Shown here: one piece after another, positions 2,420 through 17,663 of the stretch
Layout of the letters: the number at the start of each line of letters is the position of its first letter
Position numbering within the stretch: the stretch's first letter is position 1
From: a virus
Strand: one strand, 5' to 3'
IMG/VR virus record: IMGVR_UViG_3300046002_007359
Span: 1-20,558 of that record
Length of the DNA: 20,558 nt
Position numbers and translations under genes: made by a program
Notes under the pieces: generated by a model
The model's input: the letters and a program-made list of their open reading frames with translations, nothing else
Told to the model about the DNA's origin: nothing
Database searches by the model: none

Positions 2420-2437
2420 TTTTAAATAAACATATCC

Positions 2438-2451
2438 ATATTTATAATAAA
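2438..2451 (+). promoter_or_regulatory. Candidate late promoter 1
   Basis: ATATTTATAATAAA, with a perfect TATAAT at 2443-2448, lies 13 bases before the ATG at 2465. It is one of six copies of a conserved element found only upstream of structural genes in this window. Promoter function is inferred from conservation and position. Confidence 0.55.
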
Positions 2452-2464
2452 CAAAAAACACTAT

Positions 2465-2716
2465 ATGTCAGTTACAAATTTAACACCAGAAGAATTAAAA
2501 GTCCTTCAAGAATACCAAAACGAAAATAATGAAATAGTTGCCGGATTAGGTACAATTGAATTAACAATCGATAATTTAAATTCTCAAAAAATAGAGTTAT
2601 TAGAAAAGTTTAAAAAACTCCAAACACAACAAACCCAAACTGCTAAAGAATTACAAGCTAAATATGGGGATGGTAACATAAACCTGGAAACAGGAGAAAT
2701 TAGTGCGTTGGAATAG
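2465..2716 (+). CDS. Small coiled-coil protein of unknown function
   Basis: This 83-residue, highly charged protein is not recognised. Residues about 7-70 are predicted to be one long helix or a helical hairpin: hydrophobic residues recur at heptad-like spacing (LKVLQEY, VAGLGTIELTIDNL, IELLEKFKKLQ), with many Gln, Lys and Glu and no Cys. A GDG turn at about 68-70 precedes a short acidic tail. The gene has its own copy of the late promoter-like element and sits between the tail terminator and sheath genes, so expression with the tail genes is likely. It could be a tail assembly factor or chaperone, but nothing in the sequence settles that. The ATG is chosen because no other start precedes it after the promoter. 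Confidence 0.7.
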   Translation: MSVTNLTPEELKVLQEYQNENNEIVAGLGTIELTIDNLNSQKIELLEKFKKLQTQQTQTAKELQAKYGDGNINLETGEISALE

Positions 2717-2733
2717 ATTTTTGAGATATTTTC

Positions 2734-2750
2734 TAATATTTATAACAAAA
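2734..2750 (+). promoter_or_regulatory. Candidate late promoter 2 (tail sheath)
   Basis: TAATATTTATAACAAAA matches the shared element at 16 of 17 positions (C for T in the TATAAT box). It lies 27 bases before the sheath ATG in an otherwise featureless AT-rich gap. Confidence 0.55.
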
Positions 2751-2777
2751 TAATATTAAAAAATAATATAAACAACA

Positions 2778-4808
2778 ATGGCAGAAACATTATTATCTCC
2801 AGGTGTATTAGCAAGAGAAAACGATTCATCATTTATTGGTGCTAGACCCGTAACCTATGGTGCGGCTATTATTGGACCTGCAGTAATGGGTCCTGTTAAT
2901 ATCCCAACAGCAGTATCTACATTTTCTCAATACGAAGCTATTTTTGGTGGCACAGTAGAAAGTGGATCCCAATTTTACACTTATTTAAATTCAATTGCAG
3001 CAAGAAATTATTTTGCTCAAGGGGGTGAATCTTTATTAATAACTAGAGTTGTTACAGGTTCATTCACAGAAGCAACTAGCTCAATCGGAAGTAAACGTAC
3101 CTCAGGTGCTATACTAGGTGGATTGAATGCTCTTTCATCTTCAATTGTTTCCTCTCCAAACATTACAGGTAGTACAGGTGGTACTTCAACTAACTTAGTT
3201 ACAACAACAAGTGGTGGTGGAACTGGAGCAATAGCAACCGTATCTGTAGCTCCACAAGCTAACACTGCTACCGTGTCAAATATTACAGCTGTAACATTTA
3301 CTTCACCAGGTTCAGGATATGCAGTAGGTGATACTATTACAATAGCATCCGCTTCATTAGGTGCTACAGAAGCAGGAGGAACTAATTTAAATTTCCTAGT
3401 AGAAGCTAGTGATTTAGCTTACACTTCATCTTTCACATTAAAAACAATTTCTGAAGGTGTAATTATGAACAACTCTCAAATAGTTGATGGTGCAAATGGA
3501 ACTTTAACAAGTGGTTCAAATTACAACATTAGATGGGAAGTAGCTTCAGTTAACACATCTTCAGGCCAATTTTCATTATTAATTAGAAGAGGTAACGATA
3601 CAAATAATCAAAAAGCAGTATTAGAAACTTATAATAACTTATCATTAGATCCAACAGCTGCTAATTATATTGGTAACGCAATTGGTGATACTTACTTTAC
3701 AGTAGAACAAGATGGTGTTGATACCTATGTTAAAACAAATGGTAACTATCCAAACAGAAGTGCTTACGTTTACGTAGAATCTGTTAATTTACCAACCCCA
3801 TCATATTTTGATAATGATGGTGTAGCTAAACCACAATTCACAGCTTCATTACCTCAAGTATCATCAGGTTCATTTGGTGGTGCTACAGGAACAAATTATG
3901 TAAATAATGATGCTAAATTTAACGAAAATATAACATCAACAAATACACAAGGTATTTCAGCTGCAAGTTATACTCAAGCAATTAGCTTACTTTCAAACTC
4001 TGATGATTATCAATTCAACGTAATTGCCGCTCCAGGTTTAATTAGTACTTTACATGCTTCCGCAGTTAACTCAATAGTTAGCTTAGCACAAGGAAGAACC
4101 GATTGTATCGCTGTAATTGATTTGGTACCGTATAATTCAACGATAAATACAGTAACAAACGCGGTATCAGCATATGATAGTTCATACGCAGCTACTTACT
4201 GGCCTTGGTTGCAAACATTAGATGCAGCAACAGGACAAACAGTTTGGGCACCAGCTTCAACTTATATCCCAGGAGTATATGCATTTACAGATGCTTCATC
4301 AGACCCATGGTTCGCACCTGCAGGTTTAATTAGAGGAGCTCTAGGAAGTGTAATTAGAGCTGAAAGAAAATTAACAGCTGGAAATAGAGATACATTATAC
4401 GAAGCAAATGTTAACCCAATTGCAACATTCCCAGGAACTGGTACTGTAGTATTTGGACAAAAAACATTACAGAAAAAAGCTTCTGCTTTAGATAGAGTAA
4501 ATGTAAGAAGATTATTAATCGCTCTTAAAGGATATATCAGTCAAGTATCTGATAACTTGGTATTTGAACAAAATACAATTGCTACAAGAAATAATTTCTT
4601 AAGCCAAGTTAACCCATACTTAGAATCAGTACAACAAAGACAAGGTTTGTATGCTTTCAAAGTAGTAATGGATGATACAAACAATACACCTGATGTAATT
4701 GATAGAAATGAATTAGTAGGTCAGATTTATTTACAACCAACTAAAACAGCAGAATTTATAATCCTAGACTTTAATGTACTTCCAACAGGAGCTACATTCC
4801 CAGGATAA
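2778..4808 (+). CDS. 18: Tail sheath protein, T4 gp18-like
   Basis: This is the subunit of the contractile sheath that surrounds the tail tube and shortens to drive it into the host. The 676-residue protein (T4 gp18: about 659) has the hallmark N-terminus LLSPGVLARENDSS (about 5-18), then an ARP..YGAAIIGPAVMGPVN strand and the RNYFAQGG..LLITRVV block (76-92). The conserved C-terminal sheath domain runs from about residue 564 (LQKKASALDRVNVRRLLIAL) to the end and includes FEQNT and a Y-A-F-K-V strand. The middle (about 131-560) is Ser/Thr/Gly-rich and variable, as expected for outward-facing domains; it carries a PGSGYAVGDTITI module at 177-189. Nineteen of its twenty arginine codons are AGA. 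It has its own promoter-like element and is followed by the tube gene. Confidence 0.95.
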   Translation: MAETLLSPGVLARENDSSFIGARPVTYGAAIIGPAVMGPVNIPTAVSTFSQYEAIFGGTVESGSQFYTYLNSIAARNYFAQGGESLLITRVVTGSFTEATSSIGSKRTSGAILGGLNALSSSIVSSPNITGSTGGTSTNLVTTTSGGGTGAIATVSVAPQANTATVSNITAVTFTSPGSGYAVGDTITIASASLGATEAGGTNLNFLVEASDLAYTSSFTLKTISEGVIMNNSQIVDGANGTLTSGSNYNIRWEVASVNTSSGQFSLLIRRGNDTNNQKAVLETYNNLSLDPTAANYIGNAIGDTYFTVEQDGVDTYVKTNGNYPNRSAYVYVESVNLPTPSYFDNDGVAKPQFTASLPQVSSGSFGGATGTNYVNNDAKFNENITSTNTQGISAASYTQAISLLSNSDDYQFNVIAAPGLISTLHASAVNSIVSLAQGRTDCIAVIDLVPYNSTINTVTNAVSAYDSSYAATYWPWLQTLDAATGQTVWAPASTYIPGVYAFTDASSDPWFAPAGLIRGALGSVIRAERKLTAGNRDTLYEANVNPIATFPGTGTVVFGQKTLQKKASALDRVNVRRLLIALKGYISQVSDNLVFEQNTIATRNNFLSQVNPYLESVQQRQGLYAFKVVMDDTNNTPDVIDRNELVGQIYLQPTKTAEFIILDFNVLPTGATFPG

Positions 4809-4822
4809 AAAATTAAAATAAC

Positions 4823-4839
4823 TAATATTTATAATAAAA
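4823..4839 (+). promoter_or_regulatory. Candidate late promoter 3 (tail tube)
   Basis: TAATATTTATAATAAAA is an exact consensus copy containing TATAAT at 4830-4835. It lies 18 bases before the tail tube ATG, between the sheath and tube genes. Confidence 0.6.
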
Positions 4840-4857
4840 TAAATAATATATAACAAA

Positions 4858-5346
4858 ATGGCAGTATTAGACCCAAACGAAATATTTTTTACAGCATTCG
4901 AACCAAAACAAAAGAATAGATTTATTCTTTATGTAGATGGGATTCCTTCATACCAAATTAAAGGTATGGGAGCTGTAACATTAACACAAGGTACAGTAGC
5001 TTTAAATCACATTAATGTTCAACGATTTGTAAAGGGTAAATCAACTTGGGGGACTATTCAAATGACTTTATTTGATCCAATCACTCCTTCAGGAGCTCAA
5101 GCCGTAATGGAATGGGTACGTTTACACCACGAATCTGTAACAGGTAGAGATGGATATAGTGATTTCTACAAAAAAGACCTTACATTAGATGTATTAGGAC
5201 CAGTAGGAGACATCGTATCTGAATGGATTATTAAAGGAGCAATTATCACAGAAGCCAATTTTGGTGATTATAACTGGGATACAGAAAACGCTGCTCAAGA
5301 ACTTACAGTAACAGTTCAACCTGATTATTGTATCTTAAACTTCTAA
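4858..5346 (+). CDS. 19: Tail tube protein, T4 gp19-like
   Basis: This is the major tube subunit that stacks in rings inside the sheath and conducts DNA during ejection. It has 162 residues, matching the family (T4 gp19: 163). Recognisable blocks are KQKNRFILYVDGIPSYQIKG (16-35), ALNHINVQRFVKGKSTWG (48-65) with the tube-family K.K...W pattern, IQMTLFDPITPSGAQAV (67-83) and the C-terminal EANFGDYNWD segment (about 132-141). The position after the sheath gene is canonical. It is flanked by an exact promoter-like element upstream and a strong terminator downstream, so it can be transcribed as a short separate message, which fits a protein needed in very high copy. The leader is A-rich (ACAAAATG) with no Shine-Dalgarno sequence. 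Confidence 0.95.
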   Translation: MAVLDPNEIFFTAFEPKQKNRFILYVDGIPSYQIKGMGAVTLTQGTVALNHINVQRFVKGKSTWGTIQMTLFDPITPSGAQAVMEWVRLHHESVTGRDGYSDFYKKDLTLDVLGPVGDIVSEWIIKGAIITEANFGDYNWDTENAAQELTVTVQPDYCILNF

Positions 5347-5376
5347 GAAACTTATCCCCGCTTTTTTTCAAAAATT

Positions 5377-5402
5377 GCTTGGCTTCGGCCAAGCTTTTTT
5401 TT
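5377..5402 (+). terminator. Rho-independent terminator with UUCG loop
   Basis: A 7-bp perfect stem GCTTGGC/GCCAAGC (5377-5383 and 5388-5394) is closed by a TTCG tetraloop, with C-G as the closing pair, the most stable type. Eight T residues follow (5395-5402). It lies 30 bases after the tail tube stop codon and ends the sheath-tube transcripts. It is the only convincing intrinsic terminator I see in the window. Confidence 0.93.
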
Positions 5403-5406
5403 ATGT

Positions 5407-5423
5407 TCATATGTATAATAAAA
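5407..5423 (+). promoter_or_regulatory. Candidate late promoter 4 (variant copy)
   Basis: TCATATGTATAATAAAA is a diverged copy of the shared element that keeps TATAAT (5414-5419) and the A tract. It starts just after the terminator T run and 26 bases before the ATG at 5450, so it would restart transcription for the next unit. Confidence 0.5.
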
Positions 5424-5449
5424 CAACCGTTATTAATTAAATAAAGATT

Positions 5450-6178
5450 ATGGCCGAATTTAAGTTCCCTACTGAAGAAGTAGAATTGCCTTCAAGAGGA
5501 TTATTATATCCTAAAGAGTCTCCTTTATCAAAAGGTAAAGTAGAAATCAAATACATGACTGCTAAGGAAGAAGATATTTTAACTAACCAATCCTATATTC
5601 AAAATGGTACTGTGTTAGATAAATTATTACAATCTTTAATTGTAAATAAAGATATTAGTACTGATGATTTATTTGTAGGAGATAAAAATGCTTTATATAT
5701 CGCTGCTCGTATTTTAGGATATGGTAAAGAATATAATGTTAGAATAGCAGGTAAAGATCAAACAATTGATTTAACTACTTTAGAACCTAAAGAAATTGAC
5801 TTTTCTATATTAGAAAATGGAAAAAATGAATTTAGCTATGTATTAGAAAATACAGGTACAGTTTTAACTTTTAAATTACTTAATGGTAAAGATGAAAAAG
5901 CCATTGATAGAGAAGTAGCTGGATTAAAAAAATTAAATCCTTTAACTTCTAGTGAATTAACTACTCGTCTAAAACACATGATTACCTCAGTTGATGGTAA
6001 TGAAGAAAAAAAAGATATTAGAGATTTTGTAGATAACTACTTTCTAGCAAAAGATGCTAGAGCTTTTAGAGAGTATGTTAGAAATATTCAACCTGATATC
6101 AACATGAATGTTATTTTGGATAGTGGTGAGGAGGCTACTTTGCCTATTGGGCTTAACTTTTTTTGGCCTGACGCCTAA
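5450..6178 (+). CDS. Baseplate hub / tail assembly chaperone-like protein, T4 gp26 family
   Basis: The 242-residue protein has the pattern of the T4-type baseplate protein family that includes gp26. An N-terminal VELPSRGLLYP (about 11-21) is followed by KYMTAKEEDIL (34-44), a helical VLDKLLQSLI stretch (about 55-64) and LYIAARILGYG (82-92). The C-terminal half is charged and helical (DIRDFVDNYFLAKDARAFREYV) and ends in LPIGLNFFWPDA. It has no Cys. The gene lies between tail tube and tape measure, the slot that in many tailed phages holds the tail assembly chaperone pair made by ribosomal frameshifting. A second open frame continues past its stop in the +1 register with family-like sequence, after a run of seven T at 6158-6164. 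Function could therefore be hub component, tape-measure chaperone, or both; the sequence does not decide. Confidence 0.7.
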   Translation: MAEFKFPTEEVELPSRGLLYPKESPLSKGKVEIKYMTAKEEDILTNQSYIQNGTVLDKLLQSLIVNKDISTDDLFVGDKNALYIAARILGYGKEYNVRIAGKDQTIDLTTLEPKEIDFSILENGKNEFSYVLENTGTVLTFKLLNGKDEKAIDREVAGLKKLNPLTSSELTTRLKHMITSVDGNEEKKDIRDFVDNYFLAKDARAFREYVRNIQPDINMNVILDSGEEATLPIGLNFFWPDA

Positions 6179-6464
6179 TTCCGCTCCCGAGTTCCGAAAA
6201 TCTTTATTTTCACAAATCCATAGTATAGTATTCCATGGAAAAGGTGGATATGATTTTGGTACTATATACAATATGCCCATTTGGTTGCGTAAATTTACCT
6301 TATTTGAAATGAATAATTTCTATACCGACCAAAATGAACAAAGAGAAAAATCCAATAAAGGTAATAAAAATGCTACCAATATGGTTAATTCCGATGGTAC
6401 AGTTAATACCCCTGCTTTTTTAGCTGCCTCTAAGCAATACAAAGGTAAAACAGATTATAAGTAA
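6108..6464 (+). CDS. Frame-shifted continuation of the gp26-like gene (likely +1/-2 product)
   Basis: This frame is open from the ATG at 6108, but its first about 23 codons lie over the end of the gp26-like gene and look like a shadow of it. The protein-like part starts near 6177 and runs PEFRKSLFSQIHSIVFHGKG, then GGYDFGTIYNMPIWLRKFTL, then a polar Asn/Lys-rich tail of about 45 residues (about 96 residues in all). No ATG, GTG or TTG is in frame between 6150 and the ATG at 6272, which falls in the middle of that block, and there is no ribosome site. The register is +1 (equivalently -2) relative to the upstream gene. It is therefore best read as the C-terminal extension of the upstream protein, reached by frameshifting at the T run or at the GCC-TAA stop, or as the result of an indel. 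Separate translation by coupling is the alternative. Confidence 0.6.
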   Translation: MLFWIVVRRLLCLLGLTFFGLTPNSAPEFRKSLFSQIHSIVFHGKGGYDFGTIYNMPIWLRKFTLFEMNNFYTDQNEQREKSNKGNKNATNMVNSDGTVNTPAFLAASKQYKGKTDYK

Positions 6465-6481
6465 TAATATTTATAATAAAA
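6465..6481 (+). promoter_or_regulatory. Candidate late promoter 5 (tape measure)
   Basis: TAATATTTATAATAAAA is an exact consensus copy with TATAAT at 6472-6477, only 7 bases before the tape measure ATG. A start site about 7 bases after the TATAAT box would leave a leader of roughly 5 bases, so the message would be nearly leaderless. Confidence 0.6.
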
Positions 6482-6488
6482 TATTTAC

Positions 6489-8885
6489 ATGGCTTTAGAT
6501 CCTCAAAAAGACTTAAAAACAATACAGCAACTTAATGCTGAAATTGATTCTCTTTATAAAAGATTAGGGAGGCAAGATACTCCTCCTATCTTTGATGCTG
6601 CTAAAATAGGATCTGCTCGAAGAGAGATTAAAAAATTAAATGAGGATTTAGATGATGTAAATAATTCACTTACCTTTATTTCTAAATCTTTTAGAGACAG
6701 TATAGCAGAACTATCTAAACAAAACACCGAATTAGGATTTGCTAAGAAATCTCTTAGAAGTATTGAATCCATTGCTCGTAATATAGCTTATGAAAATTCA
6801 CAAGGATTATTAATAAGCGATAAAACCCTAAATTCTTTAGAAAAAAAAGCAAAAATAGAATACCAAAGTTTGCAAATTGCTATAGATAGCGGTAGAATAA
6901 AAGGAAAAGAATTAAAAGAATTTAAAGATAACCTTGCAACTCAAGAGGAATTTTTAAAAACAATGGAAAAAATCCGTAACCAAACTAAAATGGTTAAGGA
7001 TGATTTAGGTACTAAAACATTTGCATTTTTTGATGATTTAACCTCTAAAATACCAGGCTTAGCGGCATTATCAGAACCGTTTAAAGCTGCAAGAGAAGAA
7101 GCAGAAAGAGCAGGTAAAGCTAATGTTAACTTATTTGGGCAAGCAAAACCACTACAGAAAAAACAACTTGAAGCTTTAGAAAAAGCTGCTAAAACCGGTA
7201 AAGGTCTTACACAAGATAAAGTTAAAGAATTAGGATTAGAAAAATTATTAACTTCTCAATCTGGAAAAACTTTATCAGGTAAAGTTGCATCACAAAAAGC
7301 AGGTAAATTATTAGGAAGTGCTGCCTCTGCAGCAGGTCAAAGTGCTGTATCTCCTCTAATGGCTGGTTTAAAATCTATAGGCCCCGCAATATCGGGTATG
7401 CTTAAAAAAGTATTAGGCCCTATTGGTTTACTTATGGAGTTATTTGAAGCAATTAAAGCATCAGATGCAGCTGTAGCTGATATGGCTAAGAATTTCGGTA
7501 TGACTTATAATGAGGCCAGAGATTTAAAATCTGAAATGACCTCTGTTGCTACTTCTTCAGGTGATATTTTTGTTACTTCAAAAGGTGTTTTAGAAACTTT
7601 TACTGCTATTAATGGTGCTTTAGGTACTAATGCTATGTTAAGTGATGAAATGTCTATTTCTTTTACTAAATTAAGAGAAAAAGCTGGTTTTACTAATGAA
7701 GAATTACAAGGTATAGCTAGAATTCAATTAGGTACTAAAAATACTACTGAAGATATTACAGGTCAATTTTTAGCTCAAGCAAAAGTTTCATCACTTAAAA
7801 ATGGTGTTATAATGAATGAGCAAAAAATGCTTAAAGAAATAGGAAAAGTTTCCGCTGCAACTACTTTATCATTAGGTAAAAACCCAGGATTAATAGGACA
7901 AGCAGTAGCTACAGCAAAATCTTTAGGTATGGAATTATCTCAAGTAGATGCTATAGCTGGAAGTTTACTTGATTTTGAATCATCTATTGAAAATGAATTA
8001 TCAGCTGAATTATTATTAAATAAAGATCTTAATTTAGAAAAAGCTAGACAAGCAGCTTTAAATAATGATTTAGCTACAGTTGCTGAAGAAATAGCAAATC
8101 AAGTAGGTTCATCTGCTGAATTTGCTGAAATGAATAGAATCCAACAAGAAGCATTAGCTAAATCTGTTGGTATGTCTAGAGAAGATTTAGCCGAAACTTT
8201 AATACTTCAAGATCAATTAAAAGGATTAACTGCTGAACAAGCTGCTGAAGAGACTAAAAAATTTGAACAATTAAAAGGTCAAGTAGGAGAACAAGAAGCA
8301 ATGAGAATTCTTCAAGAACAAGGAGTTGAAGGTTTAGATAAACAAGTTGGGATGGCTGATAAGATGAATGCCCAAATGGAAAAATTAAAAGAAATTTTTG
8401 TTATCGTAGGTGAAGCTTTAATGCCTATTTTAGATATATTTGTTAGTATTTTTGATGTTATAGGTCCTATAATGAAATTATTAGACCCTATGATACAAAC
8501 TGTATTAGTAGGTGTTGCTGCTATAACAGATTTAGTTAAAGGTATTATGTATGTACTTTCTCTAGGTAACATGGAATTTGGAGAAAGCGCTACCAAAAAA
8601 CAAATTCAAAAAGCAGAAGCTTCATCCCAGAAAAACTACGGAGTTAGTGGAGATGCTTTTGGAGAAGATAAAAGTATTAGAAACCGTGCAGAAATGGCTT
8701 CAGGTGGTATAGTAACAGGACCAACTAATGCACTTGTAGGTGAAGCAGGACCAGAAGCAGTTATACCATTATCGAGTAATTCACCACAAATTAAAGTAGA
8801 CAACTCAGAAACAAATGCATTATTAAAACAATTAATTAGAAAAACACCTGAAATGGCTCCTTTAGGGTTGTATGAGGTACAATAA
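6489..8885 (+). CDS. Tail tape measure protein
   Basis: This 798-residue protein is predicted to set tail length and to be ejected ahead of the DNA (the role of T4 gp29). Residues 1-190 are charged and helical with coiled-coil character, containing many KxLE/ExxK repeats. An Ala/Gly/Leu-rich segment follows at about 280-325 (LGPIGLLMELFEAI), then a long helical region, and a strongly hydrophobic segment at about 636-695 that could span a membrane. The C-terminus carries the tape-measure signature ASGGIVTGPTNALVGEAGPE, followed by AVIPL (about 736-762). There is no Cys. Length and position (after the tube and chaperone-like genes, before the baseplate genes) fit well. It has its own promoter-like element immediately upstream. 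An embedded lytic domain was looked for and not seen. Confidence 0.88.
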   Translation: MALDPQKDLKTIQQLNAEIDSLYKRLGRQDTPPIFDAAKIGSARREIKKLNEDLDDVNNSLTFISKSFRDSIAELSKQNTELGFAKKSLRSIESIARNIAYENSQGLLISDKTLNSLEKKAKIEYQSLQIAIDSGRIKGKELKEFKDNLATQEEFLKTMEKIRNQTKMVKDDLGTKTFAFFDDLTSKIPGLAALSEPFKAAREEAERAGKANVNLFGQAKPLQKKQLEALEKAAKTGKGLTQDKVKELGLEKLLTSQSGKTLSGKVASQKAGKLLGSAASAAGQSAVSPLMAGLKSIGPAISGMLKKVLGPIGLLMELFEAIKASDAAVADMAKNFGMTYNEARDLKSEMTSVATSSGDIFVTSKGVLETFTAINGALGTNAMLSDEMSISFTKLREKAGFTNEELQGIARIQLGTKNTTEDITGQFLAQAKVSSLKNGVIMNEQKMLKEIGKVSAATTLSLGKNPGLIGQAVATAKSLGMELSQVDAIAGSLLDFESSIENELSAELLLNKDLNLEKARQAALNNDLATVAEEIANQVGSSAEFAEMNRIQQEALAKSVGMSREDLAETLILQDQLKGLTAEQAAEETKKFEQLKGQVGEQEAMRILQEQGVEGLDKQVGMADKMNAQMEKLKEIFVIVGEALMPILDIFVSIFDVIGPIMKLLDPMIQTVLVGVAAITDLVKGIMYVLSLGNMEFGESATKKQIQKAEASSQKNYGVSGDAFGEDKSIRNRAEMASGGIVTGPTNALVGEAGPEAVIPLSSNSPQIKVDNSETNALLKQLIRKTPEMAPLGLYEVQ

Positions 8886-8887
8886 TT

Positions 8888-8904
8888 TAATATTTATAAT
8901 AAAA
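8888..8904 (+). promoter_or_regulatory. Candidate late promoter 6 (baseplate operon)
   Basis: TAATATTTATAATAAAA is an exact consensus copy beginning 3 bases after the tape measure stop and ending 10 bases before the ATG at 8915. It is the last clear copy and would drive the five or six baseplate genes through 15869. Confidence 0.6.
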
Positions 8905-8914
8905 ACAATATATT

Positions 8915-9142
8915 ATGGGCTTATTAAACAAATTAACAACAGGACAATCGCAATTAACTGCGTTAAATGGTACAACTCCGGTTACACCAAATTTCCAACA
9001 ATCAACATTACATAAAGATTATTCTACTATTGGTGTTCCAACTTCTATTCAAGTTTTACCTCCAAACGGAATACTACCTTCTCCATCTCAATTAGATAGA
9101 CAAGGAGAACCAGTAAAATATTTGAATAACCTACCTGGATAA
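8915..9142 (+). CDS. Small structural-operon protein of unknown function
   Basis: This 75-residue protein is not recognised. It is rich in Thr, Pro, Gln and Asn, has almost no predicted helix after the first ten residues, and has no Cys. Pro-containing turns such as TTPVTPNFQQ (20-29) and VLPPNGILPSPSQ (47-59) suggest an extended, surface-wrapping peptide such as a baseplate linker, but that is inference. It is the first gene behind the last promoter-like element and is separated by only 7 bases from the large baseplate gene, so the two are probably co-expressed. The ATG is the only start in reach of the promoter. Confidence 0.65.
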   Translation: MGLLNKLTTGQSQLTALNGTTPVTPNFQQSTLHKDYSTIGVPTSIQVLPPNGILPSPSQLDRQGEPVKYLNNLPG

Positions 9143-9149
9143 TTAAAAT

Positions 9150-11429
9150 ATGCCATTAGTAAGTATGACAACCAACCTTAAATCCTTAAGGTTTGGTAAT
9201 GACAGAGTTGGAGGTGGAAACAGCAACCAGCCTTACATAGTAACTCCTATACCAGAAAAATTCTCAGATATTGGAAGAACTGGTGGGCCGGATTTTCTAT
9301 TGCGAGGTGGTACTCTTTTACCAAGAGTAATTGTTCAAGATACTTCTAGGCTATTTAAAATGTTTTTCGATTTTAGATCACCTTCTGGTCCTCTATTTAT
9401 TGCAAAACAAAATGTATTATCCTTAACTAATGTTAATTCCGGTACGGGTTATATATCATATGATGCATATAATGGTGCTAAAACTGGTAATTTACTACAA
9501 CGTACTCTTTCTTCTATAGGTAATTTTATAAGTAGTATAATACCATTAAATCAAGGTATTTACACACCCCTATCTACTTTAGGTCAGGCAGCCGGTAATA
9601 GTCTTGGTATTCACTTAAATAAACAAGGAATTAATCCATTTAGAGGAACCACTAAAGGTTCAACTGATGGTAATACTCCATTAGGTTTACCCACTTATTT
9701 AAATATTATTGCAACACCTGAAAACCAGGGAAAAAAAAGTAGATTATTAGGGCTTACTGATAAAATAAATATTAAACAAACAGATACTGTATTATACAAA
9801 TATAGTGGGGGTCCTGGAGCTTATTTAGGAGTAGGTAGAACTACTATAAATATGATTAATGATCAAAGAACAGGTATAAATAATATTTACAATACTCAAC
9901 TACCTTATATTAGTACTTGGGGTAAAAATTTTACATTTGATACTAGACAAATAACTGTAGGCGGTGAAGATCCAACAGCATCTCCTCAAACAGTAACCAA
10001 TACCAGAATTAAATATGTTGGTAGTTCTTATAGTGTGGGTCAAGGTAAATATTCAAACCCTACTGGAGAAGCATATATTCCCTCTCAAACTACTCCGGCA
10101 GCTGACTATAATTTACAATTAGCATATGGTGCTTCTATTAAATATTTTTCAACTCTACCACAAAACGCATATAATGATTCAAATTTTAATAATAATTGGT
10201 TAAATGTATCTGGTGTTGTAGCTCCATTATCTCCTAGTGTTTATAAACCTGGAGCAGGTTTAAAAACTAATGTTGATGGAGGTAAATTAAATAGTGGTGC
10301 TGGAAATTTTGTTCCACCTCAAGTTTTTACTCAAACTCAAATTAATAATTTTGATCCTGCTAGTAAAACTGATTTATCTTGGAAACCAAGTTTTACTAAA
10401 GAAATTGCTGAATTTGGATCACCATACATACCTAATACATTAGATTATGTAACCCAAAATATTGAAGATAGAGTTAAATTAGGAAACCCAGGCAAAAGAG
10501 GAAATTTAACTAGTTATGTTGTAGGTAAAATATCATCAAATTTAAGTGTGAGTCAAGGTGAAGATGCTATTAGAGCTAATAGTGGATATAAAAATGCAGC
10601 CGATTGGGTTACTGCCTTTCCTTTATATCAAACACTAGGTTTACCCCCAGCAGAAACTAATGATTTAGTTAAATTTAGAATTGGAGTTATAGATAATAAA
10701 AATCCAAAAAAGAAAACATATATTCATTTTAGAGCTTTTATAGATAGTTTTTCAGATCAATATTCATCTGATTGGAACTCTCAAAAATTTATGGGTAGAG
10801 GTGAAAGTTTTTATAAATATAATGGGTTTGATAGAACAATTTCATTATCTTGGACTGTAGCCGCTCAATCGAAACAGGAATTAATACCAATGCATCAAAA
10901 ATTAAATTATCTAGCATCAGTATGTGCTCCTGATTACTCAGATGCGGGATACATGAGAGGTAATTTAATATCATTAACCGTAGGTGGTTATTGTTATGAA
11001 CAAGTAGGTATTATGAAAGGTATTACATTAGATGTACCTGGAGAATCACCATGGGAAATTGGAATATCTGATGGATTTATTACAGGATCAAATAACGCCA
11101 ACCTTTCATCAGATCCTAGTGTTAAAGAATTACCAATGATAATTAAAGTATCCGGATTTACATTTGTACCTATTCATAAATTTGTTCCAAGAATACAACA
11201 AAATGCTTTTTACAATGGAGGTGATTCAGATGCTACTAATTTTATAACAAGTTATGGTAAAGAACATTATATAGGTTTAGCAGCTGCCGGGGTTAATAAT
11301 TATGATGGAGGAACAGTAAAAGGTGCAACTAATGGAAATTTAAATTATATACCACCACCACCAATTAGATTTGCTGCTCCTATTTTAGGTTTAAATGCCC
11401 CACAATTTCCACCATCAATAACAGGATAA
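9150..11429 (+). CDS. Large baseplate protein with tail tube-like C-terminal domain
   Basis: This 759-residue protein is probably part of the central baseplate that starts the tail tube (the position of T4 gp48/gp54). Residues 1-500 are Asn/Gly/Thr/Ser-rich and not recognised. The C-terminal part (about 505-690) looks like a tube-type beta domain: VKFRIGVID, a strand with FRAFIDSFSDQYSSDW (527-542), then YNGFDRTISLSWTVAA (about 557-572), a helix (LIPMHQKLNYLASVC), GGYCYEQVGIMKGI and SGFTFVPIHKFVPR. The FRAFIDSF segment is shared with the gp15-like protein. The tail ends in a proline-rich stretch with four consecutive prolines. The gene lies between the tape measure and the LysM and hub genes. 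The exact T4 counterpart is uncertain, and an N-terminal scaffold specific to this phage group is possible. Confidence 0.6.
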   Translation: MPLVSMTTNLKSLRFGNDRVGGGNSNQPYIVTPIPEKFSDIGRTGGPDFLLRGGTLLPRVIVQDTSRLFKMFFDFRSPSGPLFIAKQNVLSLTNVNSGTGYISYDAYNGAKTGNLLQRTLSSIGNFISSIIPLNQGIYTPLSTLGQAAGNSLGIHLNKQGINPFRGTTKGSTDGNTPLGLPTYLNIIATPENQGKKSRLLGLTDKINIKQTDTVLYKYSGGPGAYLGVGRTTINMINDQRTGINNIYNTQLPYISTWGKNFTFDTRQITVGGEDPTASPQTVTNTRIKYVGSSYSVGQGKYSNPTGEAYIPSQTTPAADYNLQLAYGASIKYFSTLPQNAYNDSNFNNNWLNVSGVVAPLSPSVYKPGAGLKTNVDGGKLNSGAGNFVPPQVFTQTQINNFDPASKTDLSWKPSFTKEIAEFGSPYIPNTLDYVTQNIEDRVKLGNPGKRGNLTSYVVGKISSNLSVSQGEDAIRANSGYKNAADWVTAFPLYQTLGLPPAETNDLVKFRIGVIDNKNPKKKTYIHFRAFIDSFSDQYSSDWNSQKFMGRGESFYKYNGFDRTISLSWTVAAQSKQELIPMHQKLNYLASVCAPDYSDAGYMRGNLISLTVGGYCYEQVGIMKGITLDVPGESPWEIGISDGFITGSNNANLSSDPSVKELPMIIKVSGFTFVPIHKFVPRIQQNAFYNGGDSDATNFITSYGKEHYIGLAAAGVNNYDGGTVKGATNGNLNYIPPPPIRFAAPILGLNAPQFPPSITG

Positions 11430-11433
11430 AAAA

Positions 11434-11763
11434 ATGGGAAGATATAGTCCAATAAAACAAGTTAATAGAACAAGACAAAACGTTACATCTGGAGTGAGAA
11501 TGTATATGGGTAACAAATACCCACAAGTTCCTCTAACTCAAGAAGATACTTATGTATGTGCCTCAGAAGGAGATAGATTTGATACTATAGCTCAACAATA
11601 CTATGGTGATTCTTCAATGTGGTGGATTATATCAATAGCAAATGAATCATTAAAACAAAATTCATATTATTTACCATTAGGAATCCAAATTAGAATCCCA
11701 GCTAATGTAGCTTCTATAATAGCGGATTACAATAAATTAAATAATAGAAGTAATAGGTTATGA
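11434..11763 (+). CDS. LysM-domain baseplate protein, gp53-like
   Basis: This 109-residue protein has one LysM-type domain at about residues 40-90: a strand TYVCASEGDRFDTIAQQYYG (40-59), then DSSMWWIISIANE and a closing LPLGIQIRIP. In contractile tails such small LysM proteins bind at the baseplate centre or wedge; T4 gp53 carries the same kind of domain. In this setting the domain is expected to be structural rather than to bind peptidoglycan. The protein has no signal peptide and no catalytic domain. The ATG lies 4 bases after the preceding stop, and the stop codon overlaps the hub gene's start (ATGA), so translation of the two is probably coupled. Confidence 0.72.
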   Translation: MGRYSPIKQVNRTRQNVTSGVRMYMGNKYPQVPLTQEDTYVCASEGDRFDTIAQQYYGDSSMWWIISIANESLKQNSYYLPLGIQIRIPANVASIIADYNKLNNRSNRL

Positions 11764-14700
11764 GCGTAATAGGAGAAAAATTTAAAAAATATGTTCAATC
11801 CCAAATTGCCGTAAGACAAAGAACACATGGTAAGGGGTATGCACCTAATTCATTTAGAACTAATGCAGAAATTGAAGTATTAAATAACCAAAATGCCTGG
11901 TTAAAACTTTCATCTTCAGTTAGAATAGTAGGAAATGAAGCAGCTAGTGGAAGTAGTTCTACAGATTCTGTTCCTATAAGTGCAGGGATTCAAAGATTAA
12001 TAGATATAGGATTAACTAATACCTCTAATTTTACTGGAAACAAATTAGCTAGACAAGCAGTATTATTTAATACTTTATCAGAAGTAGTCCCTACAACTTA
12101 TAGCAAGGGTAAAGTTGCAAATGCGGGTACTCATAATTTTAGATCAGGAGTAGCCACTTCAGGTAATGTGTGGAATATGAATTCTTATGGTTTAGGAGGT
12201 AATAGTTTTGGTTTATCTCCTGCTCCAGGTTTAATATCAGCTAAAATTGATTGTAAAAATCGAGGTTCTATTCGTAGTGCTACAGTTGAAATAAAATGTT
12301 ATAATAAATTTCAATTTGAATTACTAGAATTATTATACATTAGATTAGGATACTCTATGTTGTTAGAGTGGGGTTGGGATAAATATATAAATGGCGGTAA
12401 TCAATTATCACAAGTTGGAAATACTTTATGTGAAGATGTATGGTTTCAAGATTTACCTACTAATACTTTTAGAAATGTTATTGATACTATAGAAAAATAT
12501 AGACAAAAATATGAAGGTAACTATGATGGGTTTTTAGGTAAAGTAACTAACTTTAACTGGAAATTTGGTGCTGATGGTACCTTTGATATAACTCTTAATT
12601 TAATAACTATTGGAGACGTTATTGAATCTTTAAAGGTAAATTTACCTCAAAAAATGAAAAGTGTTGCTGATATTCAACAAATTTCTCTAACTTCTCCATA
12701 TACTACTAATTTATTAGATACTTCAATTGTTCAAAATGCTGGTTCTTCAACCTTAGCATATAGATTATATTCTGATATAGTAGAAACTGATCAAGAAAAA
12801 TGGACAGGAGGAGGTGGTTATTTAGGTTTATTTACTTTATTAAAACAAACAGAAGAATCATTAGTAAATAATATACAATCAGGTGAAGGAAAAGAAGGTA
12901 AAGGAGTAAATATAGATAAATATAATTATTTTTTAACCTTTGGTCAATTATTAAATTATATTACTGAATATGTTATTCCTTCTGTTCAAGGTAATAAAAT
13001 GATTAAAATAGATACTAATTCAACTGAAAATATATGTTCTATATTTCCAATGCAAGTATCTTTAGATCCCAGAGTATGTTTTATTAAACCTTTTTATCTA
13101 CCAGAATTATCAGCAAACCAAACAAGTGAAGCTGCTGGAAAAACAACTTATATTAAAAATTGGTATGGTTGGAATTTATCTGCTGTAGATTTTGGTATAA
13201 CTGATACCAAAGGAGTAATGTATGGTCAGATTATGAACGTATATTTAAATTATAATTTTGTTTCTGATTGTTTAAAAGATACTACTTCTAATGATGAAGT
13301 ATTTTTATTTAAATTTTTATCTAAAATTTGTAGTGGTATTAATAGTTCATTAGGAGGTTTAACTCAATTAGAACCTATATTAGAAGATGATAATATCTTA
13401 AAAATTATAGATCAAAATCCTATACCTGGTATAGCAAATTCTGCTACATTTGGAAGCAGATTTAAGGGGCAAATCACTCCATTTGAAATTTTTGGTTACA
13501 ACACAGCCAACATAGCAAATAGTGGATCAGTTACATCTAATTTTGTACGTGATTTTGGTTTTGTAACTAAAATAGATCCAAGTTTAGCTTCAATGATAAC
13601 CATTGGTGCTACAAAAGAAGGAACTAAATCCAAAAATTATGATGGTACCGCTTTTTCTAAATGGAATGAAGGTTTAGAAGATGCTTATGCTATGAAGTAT
13701 GACGATCCTAATTCATATGTTGAGACAAATATAGAAGATAGTAAAGGTTTATATGCCCCTCTTACTAATGAAAATATTAATGCGATGGAGACATATTTTA
13801 ATAGTCTCCCTGAAGATGATGGCTATTCTTTCTGGTTTGATCCTGATGGATACCAAGAATGGTCCGATGCCGGAGGAAAAAGACTTTACTCAACTCGTGA
13901 TATAGTTAAATGTCCTGTTACAGGAGAAAGTTTTGGCACATCTACTTGGAAAGAATATTTTGCCGATGTTATGGAATTTTTTCTATCTCAACAAAAAGAA
14001 GAACCTAAAAAAGAAGAAATTGCTACTAATTACATTCAATGGTTAGCAGTTGCTTTTCAGGGAGTAATAAACGGTACAGCTTATACTGATCCTAATTATT
14101 TTCAATTAAGTGAAGATTTTATTAATTTAGGAAAACAATTATGGAAATCTTATAAAACTGCTTATGATAATTTAGAATACGAAACAAACCAAAATCCCTC
14201 AAATGTTATAGGTTTTATTCCTATAGATGCTAATATTAAAATTGATGGTTTATCTGGAATTAGAATTTATCAAGAATTAACAGTACAACAAGGTGTATTA
14301 CCTCCTGCTTATCCAAAAGCAGTAAAATTTTTAATAACTAAAGTAAATCATGAAATTTCTGATAATGATTGGTCAACCTCTTTAGGTACAGTTTCAACCC
14401 CAGTTACTAAAGAAAGTAAAATACCATTAAACAATATAGTTTCTGATATAATTATAAACAACCCAGATTTAGGTGATACTGGTGAAACTAAAGTAACTGT
14501 TATAACCTCAGAAGAAAAGAAAAATAATATTAGAATAATAGCAAAATATCTTAAATCTATAGGAGTTACTAGAGAAGGAGCTATTGGATTTATAGGTAAT
14601 GTTTTAGGTGAATCTGGTGCTAATCCTCAAGCATATGAAAGAAGTAGTGCAATAGGTGGAAAAGGTGGAGTTGGAATAGTACAATGGACGGCTGCCAGAA

Positions 14701-14993
14701 GAAGAGCATTAGAAACATTTTCGGGTAAGGATAAAAGTAAAGTAGAAGATATTAATAATCAATTAACATTCCTAGGAAAAGAATTATCAGCTAGTTATAG
14801 TGGTGTATTAAAAAATTTAAAATCAAGTAAAAGTATAGCAGATAGCACAGCTTATGTTTTAGAAAAATTTGAAGTACCCGCAACATATCTAAACCGAGGA
14901 ACCAACCCAAAGGCTTATGCAGCTACTAAACAAAAACGAATAAATTATGCATTATCCGCTGAAGCAGTTGTTAATGAAGTATATAATAAATAA
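11760..14993 (+). CDS. Baseplate hub protein with C-terminal tail lysozyme domain
   Basis: This 1077-residue protein combines a large structural part with a cell-wall hydrolase. The N-terminal about 870 residues contain hub-like beta segments, for example IRSATVEIKCYN, LGYSMLLEWGWDKY and VTNFNWKFGADGTFDITLNL, and probably form the ring below the tube (the role of T4 gp27). After an acidic linker (about 885-920) comes a phage lysozyme domain of the type seen in tail-associated lysozymes: VTREGAIGFIGNVLGESGAN (about 936-955) with Glu951 as predicted catalytic residue, then GGVGIVQWTAARRRALETF, in which GIVQWT..RR is the family hallmark. It should locally open peptidoglycan during injection. T4 splits these roles between gp27 and gp5; here they seem fused. 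I see no separate needle (gp5 beta-helix) repeat. Confidence 0.75.
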   Translation: MSVIGEKFKKYVQSQIAVRQRTHGKGYAPNSFRTNAEIEVLNNQNAWLKLSSSVRIVGNEAASGSSSTDSVPISAGIQRLIDIGLTNTSNFTGNKLARQAVLFNTLSEVVPTTYSKGKVANAGTHNFRSGVATSGNVWNMNSYGLGGNSFGLSPAPGLISAKIDCKNRGSIRSATVEIKCYNKFQFELLELLYIRLGYSMLLEWGWDKYINGGNQLSQVGNTLCEDVWFQDLPTNTFRNVIDTIEKYRQKYEGNYDGFLGKVTNFNWKFGADGTFDITLNLITIGDVIESLKVNLPQKMKSVADIQQISLTSPYTTNLLDTSIVQNAGSSTLAYRLYSDIVETDQEKWTGGGGYLGLFTLLKQTEESLVNNIQSGEGKEGKGVNIDKYNYFLTFGQLLNYITEYVIPSVQGNKMIKIDTNSTENICSIFPMQVSLDPRVCFIKPFYLPELSANQTSEAAGKTTYIKNWYGWNLSAVDFGITDTKGVMYGQIMNVYLNYNFVSDCLKDTTSNDEVFLFKFLSKICSGINSSLGGLTQLEPILEDDNILKIIDQNPIPGIANSATFGSRFKGQITPFEIFGYNTANIANSGSVTSNFVRDFGFVTKIDPSLASMITIGATKEGTKSKNYDGTAFSKWNEGLEDAYAMKYDDPNSYVETNIEDSKGLYAPLTNENINAMETYFNSLPEDDGYSFWFDPDGYQEWSDAGGKRLYSTRDIVKCPVTGESFGTSTWKEYFADVMEFFLSQQKEEPKKEEIATNYIQWLAVAFQGVINGTAYTDPNYFQLSEDFINLGKQLWKSYKTAYDNLEYETNQNPSNVIGFIPIDANIKIDGLSGIRIYQELTVQQGVLPPAYPKAVKFLITKVNHEISDNDWSTSLGTVSTPVTKESKIPLNNIVSDIIINNPDLGDTGETKVTVITSEEKKNNIRIIAKYLKSIGVTREGAIGFIGNVLGESGANPQAYERSSAIGGKGGVGIVQWTAARRRALETFSGKDKSKVEDINNQLTFLGKELSASYSGVLKNLKSSKSIADSTAYVLEKFEVPATYLNRGTNPKAYAATKQKRINYALSAEAVVNEVYNK

Positions 14994-14999
14994 AATATC

Positions 15000-15869
15000 A
15001 TGTATTACCCTCTATCACAAATAAATCCTAATCTTTATACTAATGGAGATGAATTTGTGTATCTTGATCCAAGTAAAAATAATCAACCCTATACAGGAAA
15101 TTATTTTGCAACTTCTAATGGTAAATTTTTTACAGGTAAAACCCCACAAGATGTTCCTACTAATGAATTAGTACGTATTGTAGAAACATCAACTAATGAA
15201 TCTATAGTAGATATTATTGGGGATTATCCCTTTGGTATTAATCCATCAACAATTGGGTATTCACCTTCAAAATTACTCTCTCAGGTATCTAAGGAATCTC
15301 CTAGAATATCAATTCCATTTCCAACTCAAGCAGATTATGCTACTGGAGAATTTTTAAGATATTTTTTAAAAAGAAGAACAAATTATACTTATTTAGAGGT
15401 AGATCAATTAACATATGAAAATATAAAAAATCAAAATCCAAAAAGTCAATATCAATTATATGAAGGAAAATCTATAACATGGATATTAACTGGTAAATTA
15501 TTAGAAGTTTATAAAATTAATTACAATATTACTGAATTGGTTGAAAAACGAGATGGATGGTTAGGTTTTTCTAGATTTTTTAAAAATAACTTTACTAAAT
15601 ACTTTTCATTCGAAGCATCATCCCCTGTATTTTTATACACTAAAGGAAGTGAATTAAAACTTGAATCAACAGGCGAGGATTATGTAGGATATTACAATAT
15701 ATCTTCTATTGGTAGAATAATAGCAGGTAAGTCTGCTACTAGAACAACTCAAGAATATCTAATTCCATATAAAGGTGGTGAAAAAATTAACCAATCAAGA
15801 TCTATTGCTACTCTTGATAATGAAGTAGGCACATCAAGAAGACAAAATATACCTTTTACTCCAAGATAA
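15000..15869 (+). CDS. Unrecognised protein with two related beta modules
   Basis: This 289-residue protein closes the baseplate operon. I do not recognise it. The N-terminus reads YYPLSQINPNLYTNGDEFVY. A module at residues 31-60 (YTGNYFATSNGKFFTGKTPQ...) resembles one at 228-257 (YVGYYNISSIGRIIAGKSAT...): both have Y-x-G-x-Y, then G, then GK with hydrophobic residues at matching spacing, suggesting an internal duplication. The middle (about 120-200) is richer in charged and aromatic residues. A tail accessory or fibre-attachment protein is plausible from position only. The start lies 6 bases after the hub stop; a TATAAT-containing stretch at 14982-14990 upstream may be a degenerate copy of the late element. 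Confidence 0.7.
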   Translation: MYYPLSQINPNLYTNGDEFVYLDPSKNNQPYTGNYFATSNGKFFTGKTPQDVPTNELVRIVETSTNESIVDIIGDYPFGINPSTIGYSPSKLLSQVSKESPRISIPFPTQADYATGEFLRYFLKRRTNYTYLEVDQLTYENIKNQNPKSQYQLYEGKSITWILTGKLLEVYKINYNITELVEKRDGWLGFSRFFKNNFTKYFSFEASSPVFLYTKGSELKLESTGEDYVGYYNISSIGRIIAGKSATRTTQEYLIPYKGGEKINQSRSIATLDNEVGTSRRQNIPFTPR

Positions 15870-15900
15870 TTGGTTTATTCAAAATAAGTTCGTATATTGA
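15870..15900 (+). promoter_or_regulatory. Candidate host-type (-33/-7) promoter for the polymerase gene
   Basis: TTGG at 15870-15873 and TATATTGA at 15893-15900 are separated by 19 bases, preceded at the -7 side by TTCG. The Bacteroidota consensus is TTTG with TAnnTTTG at a similar spacing. The same arrangement occurs before the gp32-like gene. Transcription would start near 15907, supporting the ATG at 15915 over the TTG at 15897, which lies inside the -7 box. Confidence 0.55.
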
Positions 15901-15914
15901 TCCAAAAAGGTTAT

Positions 15915-17186
15915 ATGTATTGGCTTATAGAAAACGAGGAACAATTAGGGTTTTTAATAAATAGTGGTTATAAAGAAGCATTTGTTGAAGTAATCCCATT
16001 TAATGATAACATACACCCGGTATTAAACGACGTAAGTTTGGTGTATATTAGACCAATTTACGCATCTAAAGGTTATATGGTGGGCGTTATGCATAGCGAA
16101 ACTTTAAATGAGTTAAACACGTGTGTTACCGAACTACTAAAGAATTTTGATATACTATATTGTCGAGATAAAAAGGAAATATTACATTATTTTCAACTAA
16201 ATTCTTTCTTTGACATCACCCCACCCCCTACTCCGTATATACGACCTACCACACAAACACACGAATTATTCTATAGACAACATGGTGATAATCCGGATAT
16301 AAATTTAATTATACCGATTGTTAAACACTATGAATTGTGTGAAAATATTTTTGAAGATCTAAAAGCGAATATAAACAAACCAAAAACAAGTTATGATGAA
16401 TTCTTTAACAGTAAAACCTCAATGGTGTTCAACGCCATCGAGAGAAATGGAATACGTGTACACATTCCTACCTTCCAAGAGTATTTCCACCCCATTGATA
16501 GTGAATACACTTACACTCAGTACAACCTCAAAACTACCACAACAAGACCTTCAAACAAATTTAAAAACGTAAATTATGCAGCACTCAACAAAGAAAATGG
16601 ATGTAGGAAAAGCTTTATACCGCGTAATGGAAGGTTTGTGGAAATTGATATTTCTGCTTACCATCCTAGCTTGGCTGCTCGCCTCATTGGTTATAATTTT
16701 ACCACTAGCGATATTCACGCTCATTTCGCTACCCTTTATAATGTTGATTACCAAAAATCGAAAGAACTTACTTTTAAACAGCTATATGGAGGTGTATTTG
16801 AGAATTATAAACATCTGGAATTCTTTCAAAAAGTAGAAAAGTATGTTAAAGAAAACTGGAAATTATTTGAGAATGAAGGATACATAAAGTGTCCGGTATC
16901 GAATTTTGTATATACGAAGGAAGGGTTAGGGGATATGAATCCGCAAAAACTGTTTAATTATGTGCTACAAAATTTGGAGACGTCAATGAACGTTCGTATA
17001 TTATGGGATATGATAAGGATATTGAGGGGGAAAAAGACAAAGCTAGTCTTATATACTTATGATTCATTTTTATTAGATATAGAGGAAGATGAGATAGAAG
17101 TTTTAGAGGAAATTAGAACTGTATTCAAAAATTATAAATTTAACATTAAAGAAAAAACAGGTTATGATTACAGTTTTGCAGAATGA
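15915..17186 (+). CDS. Divergent, short superfamily-A DNA polymerase
   Basis: This 423-residue protein has a catalytic core like family A polymerases. TTTTRPSNKFKNVNYAAL (about 207-224, Arg211) matches the TGRLSS...NLQNIP region; VEIDISAYHPSLAARLIGY is motif A with Asp245; DIHAHFATLYNV and KSKELTFKQLYGG (281-293) correspond to the O-helix motif B; LVLYTYDSFLLDI is motif C with Asp383. Motif A has HPS where Pol I has ELR, and motif C reads YDSF instead of HDE, closer to the HDSF of T7-type RNA polymerases. The first about 160 residues show no convincing 3'-5' exonuclease motifs. Bacterial Pol I is more than twice as long. Use as replicative, primase-like or repair polymerase is open. The codon choice differs from the tail genes. 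The ATG at 15915 is preferred over the in-frame TTG at 15897. Confidence 0.68.
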   Translation: MYWLIENEEQLGFLINSGYKEAFVEVIPFNDNIHPVLNDVSLVYIRPIYASKGYMVGVMHSETLNELNTCVTELLKNFDILYCRDKKEILHYFQLNSFFDITPPPTPYIRPTTQTHELFYRQHGDNPDINLIIPIVKHYELCENIFEDLKANINKPKTSYDEFFNSKTSMVFNAIERNGIRVHIPTFQEYFHPIDSEYTYTQYNLKTTTTRPSNKFKNVNYAALNKENGCRKSFIPRNGRFVEIDISAYHPSLAARLIGYNFTTSDIHAHFATLYNVDYQKSKELTFKQLYGGVFENYKHLEFFQKVEKYVKENWKLFENEGYIKCPVSNFVYTKEGLGDMNPQKLFNYVLQNLETSMNVRILWDMIRILRGKKTKLVLYTYDSFLLDIEEDEIEVLEEIRTVFKNYKFNIKEKTGYDYSFAE

Positions 17187-17632: not shown

Positions 17633-17663
17633 TTGGTTCCCCAAAGATTTCTTCGTATATTTA
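17633..17663 (+). promoter_or_regulatory. Candidate host-type (-33/-7) promoter for the gp32-like gene
   Basis: TTGG at 17633-17636 and TATATTTA at 17656-17663 are separated by 19 bases, with TTCG immediately before the -7 box, exactly as upstream of the polymerase gene. A small inverted repeat TTTGG/CCAAA (17632-17636 and 17641-17645) overlaps the -33 box and could be an operator. The predicted start near 17670 leaves a leader of about 17 bases. Confidence 0.6.

Follow-up and report, generated by a model that had tools for sequence, protein, structure and literature searches.

A conserved sense-strand element before structural genes of T4-type phages related to Flavobacterium phage immuto, a probable phage-specific late promoter

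The IMG/VR record IMGVR_UViG_3300046002_007359 (20,558 nucleotides, 20.6 kb; hereafter the window) is a fragment from a T4-type myophage in which neck, sheath, tube, hub, tape measure and baseplate genes are followed by genes for a divergent PolA, a single-stranded DNA (ssDNA)-binding protein, RecA and an exonuclease. Several of these names were given by synteny with Flavobacterium phage immuto, the nearest isolate, which has the same gene order and a sheath identity of 55%. Six near-identical short elements lie in the window before genes of the structural module, and a reading made from the sequence alone had taken them for a phage-specific late promoter. The question raised by this locus is what these elements are and what reads them. 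The in silico analysis described here indicates that the element is very probably a phage-specific late promoter. The signal is common to a large group of related phages, is distinct from the T4 late signal, and may point to an unrecognised viral protein as its reader.

All six copies were found on the plus strand, and three of them were exact ("three or four" had been claimed). The copies contain TATAAT, in one case TATAAC, and five of the six contain TATTTATA, as had been described. When the 17-mer was allowed up to three mismatches, the window held six matches compared to 2.68 expected by chance, and six were reached in two of 100 shuffles; with at most one mismatch there were four matches compared to 0.03 expected, and four were reached in none of 100 shuffles. 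A matrix built from 23 distinct elements taken from the tail sheath leaders of other phages, and hence independent of the window, returned the same six elements as the top six window sites (scores 14.3-20.8). The next-best site scored 8.4 and lies inside a gene, and the best site on the minus strand scored 7.7. A degenerate seventh copy, suspected at 14982-14990, was outside the 14 best matrix matches per strand and is not supported. The gaps between the end of the element and the start codon were 12, 27, 18, 26, 7 and 10 nt. The element occupied all six structural-module junctions with a gap of at least 24 nt, none of the tight junctions, and neither of the two gaps in the replication module, as the sequence-only reading had stated for the replication genes. 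Contig L008, which is near-identical to the window (99.6% over 14.8 kb), shows two further elements, 259 and 994 bp before the window start.

The tail sheath gene was used as anchor in the search for relatives of the window. Sheath relatives were encoded in at least 599 IMG/VR stretches, of which 80 loci were kept; 12 with a match that was partial or at or near a contig edge were set aside, leaving 68 loci. The scripted element count did without L008 (same species) and, for their short leaders, L035 and L037. The element was found before the sheath gene in 65 of 67 relatives with a readable leader, including L035 despite its short leader, and it recurred before structural genes in the relatives examined. 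Of the 65 scripted regions, 60 were within three mismatches, compared to 4.4% under a first-order Markov null. On the sense strand, the part that is conserved reads A-TATTTAT-x-A-xx-AAA: positions 4-10 (TATTTAT), 12, 16 and 17 (A) of the 17-mer were invariant in the 23 distinct elements. Since positions 11 and 13 vary across relatives, TATAAT, which had been noted in the copies, is present in the window but is not the unit that is kept.

Position and strand were equally restricted. At a matrix score of at least 14, nine genomes or contigs contained 72 sense matches just upstream of genes, none upstream of genes in antisense and four inside genes, compared to means of 3.4, 1.4 and 7.8, respectively, for 60 column-permuted matrices in the same nine. 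A reversed, uncomplemented matrix was tried as a control and dropped, the same sites being found again; because the core ATATTTATA is a mirror sequence, column permutations and a count of antisense matches took the place of this control. Of the 29 matches scoring at least 10 in the complete immuto genome, 23 were on the sense strand and lay either no more than 55 nt ahead of a gene start or in slight overlap with one. The genes concerned include those for the tube, portal, sheath, tail spike and a virion protein, together with gp065, which adjoins the capsid gene, and gp036. Further, 232 dereplicated elements, taken from 415 with a score of at least 12 and an ATG-initiated frame within 60 nt, were aligned. 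One strong block of information was seen, the element itself, and there was no -35 partner, with all positions from -49 to -13 at or below 0.09 bit; the information in the block is partly fixed by the selection of the elements, and that of the flanks is not. The distance from element to ATG ranged from 1 to 29 nt (5-95% range), and some elements overlapped the start codon.

Unbiased 8-mer counts were made in the leaders of immuto genes, divided into 81 of the late half and 152 of the early half. The top 8-mer of the late-half leaders was TATTTATA, with 16 occurrences compared to 0.8 expected. It was present in 16 of 81 late-half leaders and in 8 of 152 early-half leaders (p = 8e-4), which is a bias and not an absolute division. 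The top early-half 8-mers were a different set that included TATATTTAG, found in 18 of 152 early and none of 81 late leaders, and in all 18 gene-leader copies a TTG lay exactly 20 nt upstream of it. This spacing resembles the layout of Bacteroidota promoters, placed at -33/-7 with TTTG and TAnnTTTG in PMC6847099 and PMC9723704. In the nine genomes or contigs, the host-type signal was found in 16 of 18 polA and ssb leaders compared to 116 of 793 open reading frame (ORF) leaders overall, and the late core was found in none of the 18; the polA leaders of G001 and G003, in which the pattern is absent and the start may be misplaced, were counted as misses. A strict host pattern, TTTG-N18-21-TAnnTTTG, had no match on the plus strand and three on the minus strand of immuto, and a looser one, TTG-N19-21-TAnnTT, matched 20 times on the plus strand of the window, once over a terminator. 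Because the loose pattern is unspecific by itself, only the conservation and spacing of the TTG-N20 signal were used.

A further line of evidence came from transcription termination. An intrinsic terminator follows the tube gene of the window, and element 4 starts 5 nt past it. Among 56 distinct strong intrinsic terminators, 25 had the core 0-30 nt after the T tract, none had it at 30-120 nt, and none had it in antisense. Since re-initiation right after termination is promoter behaviour, this adjacency argues for a promoter. The proposal of a phage-specific late promoter is thus strongly supported in silico: the element is conserved, is fixed in strand and position, favours late genes and adjoins terminators, and the replication genes have a promoter class of their own. 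The features of the window, and the immuto gene discussed below, are collected in Table 1.

Table 1. Late elements and associated features (window positions unless immuto is named)
Feature	Position	Strand	Description
Late element 1, CCATATTTATAATAAAC	2436..2452	+	3 mismatches to the 17-mer; matrix score 14.3; 12 nt before 83-aa gene at 2465
Late element 2, TAATATTTATAACAAAA	2734..2750	+	1 mismatch; score 20.3; 27 nt before tail sheath gene at 2778
Tail sheath gene	2778..4808	+	676 aa; anchor in search for relatives
Late element 3, exact consensus	4823..4839	+	Score 20.8; 18 nt before tail tube gene at 4858 (tail tube family)
Intrinsic terminator	5377..5402	+	After tube gene; 7-bp hairpin, TTCG loop, then T tract; fold -12.7 kcal/mol
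Late element 4, TCATATGTATAATAAAA	5407..5423	+	2 mismatches; score 14.4; 26 nt before baseplate hub gene at 5450 (baseplate hub family)
Late element 5, exact consensus	6465..6481	+	Score 20.8; 7 nt before 798-aa gene at 6489
Late element 6, exact consensus	8888..8904	+	Score 20.8; 10 nt before 75-aa gene at 8915
Host-type (Bacteroidota sigma-A-like) promoter candidate, TTG-N20-TATATT	15870..15898	+	Before divergent PolA gene, ATG 15915
Host-type promoter candidate, TTG-N20-TATATT	17633..17661	+	Before ssDNA-binding protein gene at 17687
gp118, "hypothetical", 232 aa	immuto 78174-78872 (L005 28174-28872)

Some observations on the genes around these features were made in addition. The first window ORF (5-943) is cut by the window edge; in L008 the same gene, which encodes 392 aa, starts about 236 bp upstream of the window, and the element found 259 bp before the window is the one belonging to it. 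The 798-aa gene at 6489 is likely the tape measure, as judged by synteny with immuto, and the 75-aa gene at 8915 heads the baseplate run 9150-15869. A 118-aa frame at 6108-6464 shares 71 nt with the end of the hub gene, which is read in a different frame, and relatives keep it beside the hub gene. In G005 (L073) the tube gene is about 1.8 kb after the sheath gene and not directly behind it, with two late elements between them, a spacing that suggests an inserted gene. The divergent PolA of the window (15915-17186) is homologous to the immuto polymerase, which appears to be the divPolA1 of PMC11188092. The start of the window gene is probably ATG 15915 and not TTG 15897, the former being favoured because most PolA homologues align from residue 7. 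Between 22092 and 76214 of immuto (L004, L005) there are about twenty very similar early promoters of the form TTG-N20-TATATTTAGGTATC, mostly before small genes of unknown function, and many of them have a conserved downstream stretch, AATAATTAAAA.

Other explanations of the element were weighed against the late promoter. The sequence-only reading had asked about orientation, TATTTATA being the exact reverse complement of the T4 late box TATAAATA and present in five of six copies; with a core that is a mirror sequence and does not fix direction by itself, the element might be a T4 box on the opposite strand that drives antisense or leftward late transcription. In the late-module leaders of the window, TATAAATA was found in none of 14 and TATTTATA in five of 14. 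The same count in T4 gave TATAAATA in nine and TATTTATA in two of 36, and the top 8-mer there was TATAAATA, in the sense orientation. As the T4 control recovers the known late promoter, the box in the window is not the T4 box reversed, and the question was settled in favour of the sense strand. The additional fixed positions (12 and 15-17) lie on the sense side only, the upstream matches were 72 in sense and none in antisense, and the genes run in the direction of the element, so that a reversed T4 box is extremely improbable. It is also very unlikely that the element is a host promoter, of the sigma-A or sigma70-like TATAAT kind, used throughout infection. Such a promoter would explain the TATAAT, and TATTTATA is two letters from the Bacteroidota -7 box TAnnTTTG. 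However, TATAAT is not the conserved unit across relatives, the 232 elements have neither TTG at -33 nor any upstream block, with TATTTAT-x-A as the core, the same phages have a clear TTG-N20-TATATT on their replication genes, and the motif persists in a phage of a cyanobacterial host, Microcystis phage Mel-JY01.

Mel-JY01 also bears on the possibility that the element acts in RNA, enhancing translation initiation or marking a site of mRNA processing in the leaders of genes for abundant virion proteins. The closeness of the element to start codons would fit such a role, and so would PMC6847099, according to which Bacteroidota are without Shine-Dalgarno sites and favour upstream A. Against it, the element-to-ATG distance varies widely, the core is tied to the 0-30 nt past terminators, the element is absent from the tightly coupled late genes of the window, and no Rfam match was found for it. 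In Mel-JY01 the core, ATATTTAT, was found before 13 of 60 late genes compared to four of 108 other genes (p = 3.8e-4), in gene starts that were chosen by hand from the annotation and cover part of its genes. It lies upstream of GGAG-like Shine-Dalgarno sites, which usually follow it, mostly as separate sites nearer the start codon. The core together with a separate Shine-Dalgarno site therefore sets the element apart from translation and from the host promoter code and ties it to a phage factor. The signal follows the phage and not translation; the translation reading is weakened, and an RNA-level role in general is regarded as very improbable.

If the element is a late promoter, each copy would be the promoter core for a phage-modified host RNA polymerase, acting as a single block on the sense strand. 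With the -35 partner missing, as it is in T4 late promoters, a dedicated factor has to supply the specificity. The replication genes would be transcribed first, from host-type promoters, and the structural genes would be switched on once the dedicated factor is made. We infer this late timing, and also the start site: if the block is placed as the -7 box of Flavobacterium is (-12 to -5), the start would fall in the AAA run at positions 15-17 of the 17-mer, and leaders would be approximately 8-30 nt long.

The best candidate for the dedicated factor would be the family of immuto gp118. At least 600 IMG/VR stretches encode a relative of gp118. A search of 50,697 phage records gave homologues only in four immuto records, in Mel-JY01 (36%) and in LR756508, and these six are the six best sheath matches. 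Two more of the relatives tested, G016 and G017, are of complete size, and each has the gene. None of the genes of the window is on the five contigs that carry gp118 of the 60% group, and for this reason the lineage of the window is not tied to gp118 on one contig. In immuto, gp118 belongs to a same-strand gene run headed by a host-type promoter at 76,214. No late element scoring at least 10 was found between that promoter and gp118, and a bare core lacking matrix support lies farther upstream, at 76,096. This arrangement is as expected of a factor made before the late phase. In Mel-JY01, the start of the gp118 homologue was in neither of the two gene lists compared above.

The sequence-only reading had pointed to a gp55-like late sigma factor as something to look for; a divergent candidate was found in related genomes and none in the window. 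The gp55 family (phrog_234; T4 control E 2.5e-70) gave one weak match in immuto, gp118, with E 0.008 in the one-genome search and E 0.5 against all PHROGs, and no match in 15 contigs or in Mel-JY01. Sigma70_r2 matched in none of 16 records. A first gp55 profile of four sequences gave no significant immuto ORF (HHalign probability 3.5%) and was replaced by one of ten sequences. With the latter, gp118 was top-ranked among the immuto ORFs (E 0.017), and the gp118 family aligned colinearly from the N-terminus (P 3.7e-4, compared to 0.038 for the best of 20 column shuffles). Within the family, Sigma70_r2 matched 21 of 41 members weakly, the best E being 0.006, a similarity that does not reach the curated cut-off. 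Residues 64-110 of gp118 read like sigma region 2, and the family carries a stretch, FDxxxGAKAxSYFxxIVKRWLI, that resembles sigma 2.2-2.3; this resemblance was tested by the Sigma70_r2 search and by fold. In an AlphaFold model of a gp118 relative (pLDDT 78), residues from about 6 to 115 superposed on sigma region 2. The model matched Staphylococcus aureus sigma-B (8x6g) with Z 9.0 and rmsd 2.5 over 91 residues and Escherichia coli sigma-E (1or7) with Z 8.9, and the matches listed in this fold comparison were either sigma factors or subunits of polymerase in which a sigma-like domain is present. A sequence search of solved structures with the gp118 profile returned unrelated chains only. Behind a disordered linker, the model predicts a second, confidently folded helical domain. 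The model thus lends support to a sigma-region-2-like N-terminal half, at a remote level of similarity, and gp118 may be distantly related to T4 gp55. Its role as the reader of the element is moderately probable.

Several findings weigh against this picture and were taken into account. On the side of the element, TATTTATA is not confined to late genes, as the 8 of 152 early-half leaders of immuto show, and the immuto elements at 24546, 25035 and 59988 precede early-half genes of unknown timing; at the sheath gene the element is missing in L037 (none in 68 nt) and in L055 (none at up to four mismatches). On the side of gp118, the window, a fragment, holds no sigma gene, and gp118 is missing in 18 of 31 records searched, all 18 of them shorter than a full genome. 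The HHalign probability of the gp118 family for gp55 is 36%, the Foldseek E-values of the model are above 0.1, and a Z near 9 can be incidental for helical bundles, as the tool itself notes. A fold search with the C-terminal domain gave no convincing match (best Z 5.0); the matches listed did not include sigma region 4, and a family that is not listed is not thereby excluded. The link from gp118 to the element is one of co-occurrence, and LR756508, which has a gp118 homologue, has no such motif in the 42 kb around its sheath gene. A variant in which the late promoter is read by another factor, either a different phage protein or a modified host sigma, is compatible with the promoter part of the argument. 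It would account for LR756508, where the motif is not evident in the part examined, and is left room by the links of gp118 to the element, which are only co-occurrence and fold. Against it, no other sigma-like frame was found, with no Sigma70_r2 match in 16 records and phrog_234 giving only gp118 in immuto and nothing in Mel-JY01; such a reader is possible but rather unlikely.

The late promoter and the gp118 candidate, taken at their widest, would mean that an entire clade of T4-type Bacteroidota phages, to which at least 599 IMG/VR stretches belong by a related sheath gene, runs its late genes by a single-chain late sigma, gp118 with its region-2 and C-terminal domains, on TATTTAT-x-A and without a T4-like sliding clamp. 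In this full form the proposal is doubtful. If true, it would supply the fused late-transcription sigma noted as missing by the T4 field, uncoupled from clamp-dependent control by replication. The results as they stand give a concrete transcription map for an abundant, almost uncultured marine phage group, an easy rule for annotating the late operons of such genomes, and a named, testable candidate for an unannotated regulator in hundreds of contigs. They also bear on two questions in PMC2988020, namely the gp55/gp33 split of the late sigma and the generality of replication-coupled late transcription. No description of this late promoter was found in the open-licence literature on TATTTATA, immuto or Flavobacterium phages, late promoters of Bacteroidetes phages, or phage sigma factors, which does not prove that none has been printed, and the Baltic Flavobacterium phage paper PMC7077304, searched by term, showed mention of neither promoter nor immuto.

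Compared to the known systems, the phages studied here share one feature with the Bacteroidota primary promoter (TTTG / TAnnTTTG, sigma-ABfr), namely the TTG-N20-TATATT signal before replication genes and many early-half genes. In contrast, a TTG block is missing from the late elements, and of the six fixed letters of TAnnTTTG their box departs from two, at positions 6 and 8. The N-terminal part of the gp118 family resembles Sigma70 region 2 (Pfam Sigma70_r2) by superposition of the predicted model, whereas its sequence similarity is under the curated cut-off and its C-terminal domain has no region 4 match. The T4 late system (gp55/gp33/gp45; Straboviridae and cyanophages) requires gp55 and has promoters lacking a -35 element, according to the T4 review (PMC2988020), which also states that no fused late sigma has been found in nature and asks why domains 2 and 4 are in every case divided over two proteins, gp55 and gp33. 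It differs from the present system in its box, which is TATAAATA in T4 and TATTTAT-x-A here, and in its factor: there is no family-level gp55 here, and the candidate factor is longer and has its C-terminal domain in the same chain. In T4-type late transcription the start lies one helical turn downstream of the box, and the gp55 family has a C-terminal motif that binds the sliding clamp, gp45. With four clamp families, by which a diverged clamp could be missed, no gp45-, PCNA- or DnaN-type clamp was found in three complete or near-complete relatives, immuto, G016 and G017; Mel-JY01 is annotated with a clamp loader subunit. The two systems are alike in their T4-type virion genes, in a single AT-rich box lacking a -35 element and followed by AT-rich sequence, in the mostly structural genes that the box precedes, and in a phage factor, here a candidate, that is sigma-region-2-like with a gp55-like N-terminus. 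In its defining sequence the element is not a T4 late promoter, and in its function it would work like one.

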